Shown one piece after another: positions 20,592 to 33,226 of a stretch of 33,458 nucleotides of DNA (the stretch's first letter is position 1; every line of letters starts with the position of its first letter). The stretch is taken from assembly GCA_944322945.1 (NCBI GenBank), contig CALUQN010000026.1, forward strand, positions 1 to 33,458. Direction: 5' to 3'. The notes below the pieces were generated by a model. That model searched no databases. It saw nothing but the letters and a program-made list of their open reading frames with translations, and was not told the DNA's origin. The stretch is from Candidatus Gastranaerophilales bacterium (GTDB taxonomy: Bacteria > Cyanobacteriota > Vampirovibrionia > Gastranaerophilales > Gastranaerophilaceae). Position numbers and translations under genes: made by a program.

Positions 20592-21715
20592 ATGGCTGAA
20601 AACACAGGTATAATGAGGAAACAACAAGGGGGGGGGGGGGCAAATTCCTAAATGTTGAATTTTTAAGATTTATTTTTTCTGTCTTTATTGTAATACTACA
20701 CTTTTGCTGCATCCATTTTGCAAAATTCGGGGATATTGGAGATATTATAGGTAAAAACTCAGTTGTAAAGCATGGTTACTTGGCTGTACAATATTTTTTC
20801 ATTATTGCAGGATTTTTTCTCATTTACACACTCAACAAGAACCTTACTGTTATGGATTTTATAAAAAAGAAAATAGTCAGGCTCTGGCCATTAATGGCAC
20901 TCAATTTTGTTCTATTTTTAATGGCCAGCGGGTTCGGAATCGTAAAATTTAACTTTTATAAGTACGTATTCTCATTACTTTTATTAGAAAATATTGGTGT
21001 TACATTTGACCATACAATCCAGGGAGGGTGGTTTGTTTCAGTATTATTTTTTGTATCGCTTTTCTATTTTTATATTTTTAAATATTTTGACAAAAAGTAT
21101 TATAATTTTTACATCCCAATATTAGTAATTCTCGGGTACACATATATGGTGCACGGAACGAACGGGGCAATAGGCGCACAGCTCCAAATTATCGGGGAAG
21201 TTTTTAACGGCGGGGTGATTCAGGGCATAAGCGCAATGGGGCTTGGATTTTTAATACACGAATTTTACCGGTATTTGAAAACTCAAAACTATATTGAGAC
21301 ACTTAAATCAAAAATAATTTATACGCTGCTTGAAGGCTATTTGCTCGGATTTGTAGTCTACGAAACAATTATGCACAAAATACACTTTAAAAACCTGTTA
21401 ATATTAGTCATCGCATTTTGCGGCTTATTCATAACATTTCTATTGCAGCGCGGATATATCTCAAAAATATTAAACAATAAAATATCAGGGATATTGGGCA
21501 GATACGCATATTCATTATTTTTAACCCACGGATTTGTAATAATTCTTTTTAACTATTTTTACGTTAAAAAGAATACCGATATACTTTTCAATCATCCGTA
21601 CGAAATTCTCGGAATTGCGATTATACTGGCACTAATTTTTGCCGTATTGGTCTACCACCTTGTAGAAGTTCCGGCTGGGAAATGGCTGAAAAAGAAATTC
21701 TTTCCGGCTAATTAA
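20592..21715 (+). CDS. Phase-variable membrane acyltransferase (acyltransferase 3/OafA-like), out of frame here
   Basis: The real start is ATG 20592, 6 nt after a strong AAAGGAGG ribosome site. The frame runs MAENTGIMRKQQ into a G13 tract (20628-20640) and stops at 20649, giving 19 aa. The downstream frame, open from the tract to 21715, encodes LNVEFLRFIFSVFIVILHFC, then LAVQYFFIIAGFFLIYTLNK, GGWFVSVLFFV, and about ten membrane helices ending in VPAGKWLKKKFF, the layout of integral-membrane O-acyltransferases that modify cell-surface glycans. A tract of 14 (or 11) Gs would join the two frames into a 374- (or 373-) aa protein. So this is a slipped-strand contingency locus caught OFF, or a homopolymer sequencing error. 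An internal TTG start at 20780 has no ribosome site and would lose the first helix. Confidence 0.8.
20628..20640 (+). repeat. Poly-G tract (G13) in the acyltransferase gene
   Basis: Thirteen consecutive Gs, 12 codons after the ATG. The count puts the rest of the gene out of frame; 11 or 14 would restore it. This is the typical position and size of a slipped-strand mispairing tract. Confidence 0.9.
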
Positions 21716-29690: not shown

Positions 29691-29738
29691 CACCCTCTCC
29701 CGATTTGGAGAGGGTGGCACGTAGTGCCGGGTGAGGGG
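29691..29738. repeat. CCCTCTCC / GGAGAGGG-type dispersed repeat
   Basis: CACCCTCTCCCGATTTGGAG followed by AGGGTGGCACGTAGTGCCGG and GTGAGGGG, containing two nested hairpins (CCCTCTCC/GGAGAGGG and GGCAC/GTGCC). This type of intergenic palindrome is widespread in bacteria. Non-coding. Confidence 0.5.
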
Positions 29739-29870
29739 ACAAACATAATGGTTCTCGCCTCCCCCCCACCTAACCTGTCTTGAATTTGCTTCCCCAAGCC
29801 GGGGAAGGAGGTTTAAACAAATTCAGGGTGACAGATTAATGAAATGGACTTAACGTCTTAACGTCCTTTT

Positions 29871-30002: not shown

Positions 30003-30031
30003 TTGAAATTTTAATTAAAATAGTATATAAT
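30003..30031 (+). promoter_or_regulatory. Sigma70-type promoter of the autotransporter
   Basis: A -35 TTGAAA (30003-30008), a 17-nt spacer and a perfect -10 TATAAT (30026-30031). The predicted start point is near 30038, leaving a leader of about 28 nt with the ribosome site AAAGGA. Confidence 0.8.
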
Positions 30032-30065
30032 GAAGATATAGACGATATACAGAAAGGATACTAGC

Positions 30066-33000
30066 ATGAAAGATATTGATTACATTACCTCAAAACCCTT
30101 AGCCTGCAAAGAAATCGGGGGGGGGTAGCCTCTAAAGCCTTACTGATAGCGGTTTTGCTGGGGGTGACTCCTGCGGTTGCGGCGGATGGTGACCTTTCAG
30201 CCCCAAGTAATGACAGCTTGTACACTTTGAACAGAGTTGAGACAGCGGGCGAAAACACTATTACAAAATTTGAATACAACAGCGCAACAGGCGAATTCAC
30301 GCCTGTTTATTATCGTTTGCAGCTGAACAATACGCAGTTTGGAGCGCAGGATGGCGATGTTGAGCTCAATTTTGGCTGGCAGACGGGTGCTGACGGCAAT
30401 CCGGAGTTTGTCAAAGACCCTGCAAATCCTGTAGGTCAGTCTATTGTCTACAAGTATCTTTCTTCTGTTACACAAAATCCAAGATTAGAACCTGATGATG
30501 GAGAAGATGTAACCGGCAATTTTGTTGGTATTCTTACAGAAAATGAAATCTTTGGTGGTGTAATATTTAATGAATATCATCAAATTGGAGATATAACTAG
30601 TAATTTTATTGATAATACGCTAATTTCTGAAGCAGGGAATGCAGGTGGTGTTATTTCTTCATTTGGTACAGTAAAAAGCATCACAGGTGATTTTATAAAT
30701 AACAAAGCTATAACGTCAGGTTCGGCTTCCGAAACGTCTATACCTCTAACTGTTGGCGGGGGGATACACAATGCTGGTGGTGGTACTGATTATTTGAAAG
30801 GAAATTTTATTAATAACTCTGTTGTTGGAGTTGTTGTTTTGGGTGGTGCTATTTATAATGTAAGTTCATTTGGAGAATTTACAGGTAATTTTATTGGTAA
30901 TCATGCAATTTCAGGGCAAAATGGCAGTGCACAGGGTGGTGCTATAGCTAATTCAGGGATGATAGGTAGAGATATAGATGGAGCACTCATTGATAGTTCA
31001 GCAGCACTGTATACTGCAAAACTTAATCTAGTAAATAATAAAACTGGTGAAGTTTTAACTCTGTATTCTAAATTATGGAATTCTGAAGAAGAGTTAAAAC
31101 AGCTTGTAGGGGAGCTGCAAGAGAGTTATTTAAATGCTGGGTATAAGTTTTATGATGTTGGTATGGATACTATAATTCCAGATGACCAATGGGATTTATA
31201 TAAAGAGGAGTATGAATCCTATATTGAGCAAGGCTACTATACAACAACTAATGAATTAGCTGAGGCCTTAGGTGATTCAGCCTTTGTGAATCCTGTCGGT
31301 GGTATCGAAAACTCAAGTTTTATCGGGAACTATGCTGTTGCCAAAGATGGTATAGCGCGCGGCGGTGCGATTTATACAATAACAGATCTAAAATTAACAG
31401 CCAAAGACGGCTATACATCAGTCTTTGCCGGTAACTATGTCAGCGACAAAGACGGTACCCGCGATGAGGGTATATACGTAAGCGGTGCGGAATTGACCCT
31501 GAACACGGAAACCGGCGGTCAAATCCTTATGGACGATATGATTAACGGTTATGAAGGGTATTCGTTGAGCCTTGAAGGTGACGGCACAGGCGCAATTTAT
31601 CTGAACAGACCCGTTACAGCACAAAAGTATGACGAAAATGCCGGCGGGCTTGTCTCAACAGCTGCAACAATCAACGTAAACAACGGCGCAAACGTCTACC
31701 TCAACAACGAAACCAACATTGATAACAACAACCTTAATATGAACGGCGGCTTTGTTTCGCTAATCAACAATACAATCGGTGTTTCCGCCCTCAACTCAAT
31801 GACAGTGAGCGCTGATACAGATATCGTGGCGGATGTTGACCTTGCAGCGAAAGAAATGGATAGATTCACGGCAACTTCTTACGGCACACACACAGGCAGC
31901 CTGAATGTTGTCGGGATGAACATCCTCAAAGATGCAGTTGAAGGCGAAGACGTCACAGCGGTCTACTTTGCAGAACCGGGCTTAAAAGACCACGTGACAA
32001 CAAGTATGAGCGAAGTTCCTGACAGCTTCCAAATGACAGCCTACACGCCAATCTACAAGTATAATGTAACTTACGACAACGAAAACGAGTATGACGGCAA
32101 AGGTGACGGCGGCTACTTTCTGTTCACCCGCGGCGATAAAATTTTGGGCGGAGGCTCTACAGGCGGCGGTTCAACCGGCAACCCGTCTGACGCCTTCAAC
32201 CCTGCAGTTTTAGCAACACCCGTCGCAAACCTTGCAGCAGGTCAGGCCGCTGTGAATGAGGCGTTTAAGCATGTTTTTGAACACGCGGATTCATTCACAC
32301 AGCTTCCGGCAATGGAGCGTTATGCAAAGATTAACGCTAACAAATACGCTATAAATACTGAGTTTAACGACTACCTGCCAAGCTATGCAGAACAACTCCA
32401 AAACAAAGGCGTCTGGTTCCGTCCGTATACAACCTTTGAAAGCATAAACCTCGACAACGGACCTGACGTTGACGCGATTACCTATGGAAGTTTGGTCGGT
32501 TTTGACGGTGATTTCAAAGAGATGAAAAACGGTTGGCACAGAGTCTTTACTGGCTACGCAGGCTATATGGGGTCTTCTTTGAACTACTCCGGCGTTGATA
32601 CCACTATGAACGGAGGTTTGTTAGGCTTCACTGAAACCTTCTACAAAGGTAACTTCTGGACTGCCATCACAGCTTCTGCGGGCGCCTCTGTCGGCGAATC
32701 CCATACTATGTACGGCAAAGAAGATTATACATCACTTTTAGCAGGTGTTGGGTCAAAAAACGGTTACAACTTCGAATTTAAAGACGGTAAGTTCATCATC
32801 CAGCCGATTATGTATTTGAGCTATACGTTTGTTAATACATTCGATTATAAAAACGCCGCTGGTGTAAACATTGAATCTGACCCATTACACACTATTCAAT
32901 TAAACCCGAGTGTAAGATTCATCGCAAACCTCAAAGGCGGCTGGCAGCCTTATGCCTCTGTTGGTATGGTATGGAACCTTATGAATGAAAGCAAGGTCAC

Positions 33001-33226
33001 AGCCAACAACGTGAAATTGCCGGAAATGTCTGTTAAACCGTACGTTGAATACGGGGTTGGTGTACAGCGGAACTGGGCGGATAAGTTCACGGCGTTCTTG
33101 CAGGCGATGATAAGAAACGGCGGACGTAATGGTATTGCGCTCACCGGCGGCTTCCGATTCATGCTCGGCTCAGATGACAAAGACAACGACAAACCGAAAG
33201 TTAAAAAAGAAATCAAGTCACTATAG
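30066..33226 (+). CDS. Phase-variable Pmp-like autotransporter, out of frame here
   Basis: From ATG 30066 (AAAGGA 7 nt upstream) the frame reads MKDIDYITSKPLACKEI into a G9 tract and stops at 30126 after 20 aa. The downstream frame continues VASKALLIAVLLGVTPAVAA, a signal-peptide core with a cleavage site, then a 740-residue passenger and a C-terminal autotransporter beta-barrel (from GVWFRPYTTFE, about residue 781, to GGFRFMLG), plus an 18-residue charged tail. Ten (or seven) Gs would give a 1053- (1052-) aa protein. The passenger has repeated FxxN (FIDN, FINN, FIGN) and GGAI/GGVI/GGGI motifs, as in chlamydial polymorphic membrane proteins. It probably acts as a surface adhesin or variable antigen. 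Part of the passenger (about 30480-31310) is more AT-rich than the rest. An internal TTG start would lack half the signal peptide. Confidence 0.82.
30117..30125 (+). repeat. Poly-G tract (G9) in the autotransporter gene
   Basis: Nine Gs, 17 codons after the ATG, between the start and the hydrophobic core of the signal peptide. With nine the frame ends at TAG directly after the tract; ten or seven restores it. Confidence 0.9.

Follow-up and report, generated by a model that had tools for sequence, protein, structure and literature searches.

We believe that the gene starting at position 30066 of the window is very probably a translational phase-variation (contingency) locus, in which slipped-strand mispairing at a G tract would switch a surface protein, and that it is one of a set of switching genes; this is a reading of sequence. 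The window is the whole stretch of DNA analysed (33,458 nucleotides, contig C26) and belongs to a MAG consensus genome of 2.12 Mb (98.6% complete), which was examined through pattern searches and sequence stretches.

In the proposed mechanism, the G tract, placed between the leader codons and the hydrophobic signal-peptide core, would gain or lose bases through slipped-strand mispairing in replication. The 1032-codon protein with its signal-peptide core would be read from the start codon at every third tract length; all other lengths would give short peptides (20 aa here), and the assembly would have caught the OFF state. Several autotransporters of the genome, together with prepilins and enzymes for surface glycans, would switch independently, yielding a population with mixed surfaces. 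We infer replication slippage as the cause, as well as its reversibility and expression in the ON state. The contingency-locus reading is supported because G runs are enriched at gene starts, tract lengths differ between copies with the same flanks, the register is random only in genes with a tract, and purifying selection has acted on OFF copies. Loss of mismatch repair as the source of raised slippage was considered and rejected, as the genus has both MutS and MutL.

The autotransporter gene and its companion in the window

The features of the two genes are as follows.

20592-20640, + strand: start (20592) and G13 tract (20628-20640), both 5' of the O-acyltransferase frame (from sequence)
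20642-21715, + strand: O-acyltransferase frame (PF01757), 357 codons, OFF in the assembly (frame analysis, Pfam)
30003-30031, + strand: sigma-70-type promoter-like site, TTGAAA-17-TATAAT (matches 11 of 12 consensus positions, more than any other site in the region; a consensus match only)
30053-30058, + strand: Shine-Dalgarno-like AAAGGA ahead of the ATG at 30066 (from sequence)
30066-30128, + strand: OFF-state frame of 20 aa, with start ATG, leader codons and stop TAG at 30126-30128 (from sequence)
30117-30125, + strand: G9 tract (from sequence)
30128-30184, + strand: signal-peptide core ASKALLIAVLLGVTPAVAA in the long frame, without a usable downstream start (hydropathy; motif shared with paralogs)
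30128-33226, + strand: Pmp-like type V autotransporter frame, OFF in the assembly (1032 codons, open to 33223; TIGR01414; dN/dS)
32420-33223, + strand: autotransporter beta-barrel region (TIGR01414, 55.5 bits; 94-99% identity in the closest paralogs)

The leader ATG at 30066 (+ strand) is followed 17 codons on by the G9 tract. As originally predicted, the frame from this ATG ends directly after the tract (stop at 30126), and the neighbouring frame, open for 1032 codons, codes for the signal-peptide core; the predicted length of 1053 aa is consistent with the leader codons, the tract and these 1032 codons taken together. The promoter-like site and the Shine-Dalgarno sequence both serve the ATG ahead of the tract and are therefore counted for phase variation. 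A translation start 3' of the tract was considered and is unlikely, because the long frame has no ATG between its opening and 30959, and the non-ATG starts by the signal peptide (TTG at 30155, GTG at 30164) are without a Shine-Dalgarno sequence; these starts would also remove most of the hydrophobic core.

The O-acyltransferase gene has a strong start at 20592, and its G13 tract stands between this start and the 357-codon frame. The expectation that both poly-G genes of the window are OFF is borne out in the assembly, since G9 and G13 each part the start from its frame; in a MAG consensus a 9-base homopolymer may be miscounted, and single tract lengths are not trustworthy to one base. An Rfam search of the window for an RNA element gave no match.

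The window protein carries the C-terminal beta-barrel of a type V autotransporter (TIGR01414, 48-55.5 bits against a cut-off of 16, with 48 for the 1032-codon frame); PF03797 is above cut-off in paralogs and is not reported for the window protein. A Sec signal peptide and a beta-helical passenger are indicated by the hydrophobic core and by a structural model in which the passenger is predicted to be all-beta (pLDDT 80-90 across residues 410-590); its best PDB match is pertactin, a weak one (E 0.003). The prediction is also weak in the barrel, where the predicted strands are of low confidence. The passenger has 3 GGA[ILV] and 8 FxxN motifs, exceeding nearly all shuffles, and the corresponding repeat family PF02415 is above cut-off in the paralog L061, not in the window protein. 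Relatives of the protein are found mostly in Candidatus Gastranaerophilales and Melainabacteria MAGs.

G tracts in the genome and in related genomes

In a 433-kb sample, which contains the window, counts of G/C runs drop about 6.6-fold per extra base up to length 7; extrapolation from these shorter runs gives about 0.08 runs of at least 9, and 5 were observed. The whole genome has 17 G runs of at least 8. The enrichment at gene starts that had been suggested as a check was found: 8 of the 17 lie at the 5' ends of genes, on the coding strand, just 3' of an ATG and before a long frame, compared with 1.9-3.2% of random positions under a similar rule. A homopolymer beyond chance length in the promoter or 5' coding region, the mark of a contingency locus, is thereby present. 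The eight genes are six autotransporter-like ones (C2, C5, C8, C17, C21 and the window gene on C26), a prepilin (C31) and the O-acyltransferase behind 20628; the C8 gene has a weak Shine-Dalgarno sequence at its start and a 2843-codon frame without a Pfam match. Not all tract genes are OFF, since the C21 autotransporter is ON.

The remaining nine runs comprise seven outside long frames, one inside an AlgX-like gene and one ending a 330-codon frame. Hence the original prediction of a genome-wide poly-G strategy was right and even understated as to its extent, with the qualification that about half of the long G runs fall outside 5' coding positions, many of them (among the seven outside long frames) in an intergenic repeat. 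This repeat consists of GGGGGAGGnTAGGT followed by a G run and is the source of many non-coding G runs; there are 8 copies in a 400-kb sample (L056, L060, L107, L110, L112 and, in the window, about 29700-29830 are among the loci).

Four congeneric genomes contain 17 autotransporter genes with G9-G12 between the leader (e.g., NLDKSAF.. or KPLNS..F) and the signal-peptide core (..LLAALLLG..PA.A), so that poly-Gly stands between the two. Five of these genes are in register and 12 are out, whereas all 10 scorable paralogs without an unbroken tract are in register and 8 of the 10 are fully open (Fisher p 0.0004 and 0.018, respectively). The latter group includes L035 and L037, in which the tract is interrupted by T; two tract-free paralogs, L066 and L051, have an in-frame stop. 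Tract length thus sets the frame of one downstream protein, and it also differs between copies whose flanks agree: a gene almost identical on both sides of the tract is ON with G11 in this genome (L063) and OFF with G9 in G001 (L098); the local score is 150 over the 160 nt before the tract and 94 over the 100 nt after it. Such variation pertains to L063 and L098, not to the window tract: a search of the genus and of viral contigs gave no copy of that locus. Among all scored tract genes, 14 of 63 are in register and 49 are out, i.e., somewhat below one third in register (p 0.06), a shortfall that speaks against the reading.

In type IV prepilins of the genus, the tract is inside the leader peptide (e.g., MLK.RYRANFGGG before GFTLAEVL). 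One prepilin N-terminus has 112, 124 and 99 matches in G076, G012 and G049 (another genus of the same family), and the tract is present in 16 of 21 prepilins of G076 (a 400-kb sample chosen independently of prepilins). Their median identity is 95-98% over the first 60 residues and about 50% over the rest; samples of G043, G016, G006 and G063 contain too few prepilins to speak for those genera. The arrays L149-L168 (G076) and L189-L208 (G012) show the same picture of near-identical N-termini and divergent C-terminal parts, with G8-G14 in most leaders. The one such prepilin scanned has a sub-cut-off match to Lcl_C at its end. Ahead of eight G076 prepilins (L151, L155, L158, L159, L160, L163 and L168 among the loci) the poly-G contains NN, an assembly gap inside the run, which mixed tract lengths may have caused.

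G runs of at least 9 occur in 81 of the 95 genomes of the family, a count that says nothing on their location. In G087, from another genus, G15 after the start precedes an autotransporter-type frame with PF02415 repeats well above cut-off. A mid-gene switch may exist in G018, from another genus, in which a G10 run (L170:1210-1219) marks the meeting point of two frames, one passenger-like (L170:1-1221) and one of autotransporter type (L170:1130-3841). The AlgX-like gene, probably involved in glycan acetylation, has a mid-gene tract in three species: G11 in register (L062:4738-4748), G12 out (L104:2805-2816) and G11 in (L114:5176-5186), a variation that speaks for phase switching. In G001, tracts in register were also observed in a glycosyltransferase (G12, L095:6030-6041) and a short-chain dehydrogenase gene (G10, L096:2624-2633).

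Alternative explanations and the mosaic structure of paralogs

If RNA polymerase or the ribosome slipped at the tract, some full-length protein would be made at any length and the gene would never be fully OFF. Expression slippage likewise predicts free drift of length and selection kept on OFF copies, so the comparative traces would be the same; it is nonetheless unlikely, considering that the precedent for poly-G in surface genes is replication slippage (PMC5953494, PMC6321876) and that the same tract occurs in unrelated gene classes with cell-surface location as their sole common feature. An error of sequencing or assembly, by which a tract of constant, in-register length would have been called OFF wrongly, is suggested by the MAG consensus, by the proneness of G-rich homopolymers to error and by the NN inside eight G076 prepilin tracts. 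We consider it very unlikely: the 49 of 63 tract genes out of register come from independent assemblies in which tract-free paralogs are in register, and error alone would not account for selection that keeps long, uninterrupted stretches of G at a single position across many genes.

The register mismatch and the in-frame stops of L066 and L051 would also suit a pseudogene heading for loss, frameshifted at a mutable spot, and progressive decay has been argued for the Campylobacter cap genes (PMC7168839). For the window gene this is hardly credible, even less so than an assembly error. It retains 1032 stop-free codons, an intact promoter-like site and an intact Shine-Dalgarno sequence, and a sister with the same tract (L063) is in register. 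Between the window gene and the C5 gene, both OFF, dN is 0.046 and dS is 0.93 in the barrel (dN/dS about 0.05); in the passenger the values are 0.48 and 2.2. The low barrel dN relative to dS means that selection acted on the protein despite the OFF registers, and therefore the copies are not decaying.

Similarity between paralogs is in some cases one-sided with respect to the tract (L097, L099, L116, L123 and the window at 30117). The C3 and C6b genes of G001 are alike up to the tract and unlike beyond it (local score of 158 over the 160 nt before the tract, 10 over the 100 nt after it); the reverse holds for C2 and C44 of G003 (26 upstream, against 79 of 100 and 297 of 300 on the other side), and the window gene resembles the C5 gene mainly downstream (67 vs 24 upstream). 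The pattern would follow from an exchange of leader cassettes at or close to the tract. We tentatively propose that poly-G where leader and secretion core join may be, in Gastranaerophilales, both a general switch module of unrelated secreted families (including, in one genus, prepilin arrays with about 100 members per 1.8-Mb genome) and a site of recombination by which paralogs swap promoter-leader cassettes; we regard this as a serious possibility rather than as probable. If the comparative picture is true, gut commensals of the Gastranaerophilales depend heavily on random surface switching, one genus may carry an unusually large set of switchable pilins, and surface variation in the gut is directly testable with existing metagenome reads.

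Comparison with known systems

Poly-G phase variation is known chiefly from host-adapted proteobacteria and chlamydiae; in Neisseria pilC the poly-G falls in the signal-peptide-coding region. Gastranaerophilales (Melainabacteria) are gut-dwelling non-photosynthetic relatives of cyanobacteria and little-studied commensals. In the open-access literature searched, we found no paper tying poly-G phase variation to Melainabacteria or Gastranaerophilales.

The window gene is similar to pilC in that an ORF-internal poly-G (G9-20 in pilC) sets the frame of a surface protein (PMC5953494); however, pilC is proteobacterial, has two genes per genome and encodes a pilus-associated adhesin, neither a pilin nor a Pmp-like autotransporter. 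Chlamydia pmpG (C. trachomatis and C. pneumoniae) has an in-frame poly-G of 8-9 residues, for which phase variation was proposed (PMC4488443). The likeness lies in Pmp-like autotransporters, possibly with GGA[ILV]/FxxN repeats in the window protein too, and in poly-G; the phylum is unrelated, and here the tract occupies one fixed junction before the signal-peptide core in many paralogs, a junction shared by other gene classes. The Campylobacter capD autotransporters also mix members with poly-G in the ORF and tract-free ones (PMC7168839), although the capC tracts are upstream of the start and the authors prefer decay to phase variation (PMC7168839). The large prepilin repertoire recalls Neisseria pilE/pilS, where pilins are varied in the population (PMC5953494); the latter relies on recombination into one expressed gene, while here every prepilin has a separate start and most have a separate tract. 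The mechanism is of a known kind (Neisseria pilC, Chlamydia pmp); the lineage, the placement of the tract and the scale look new.
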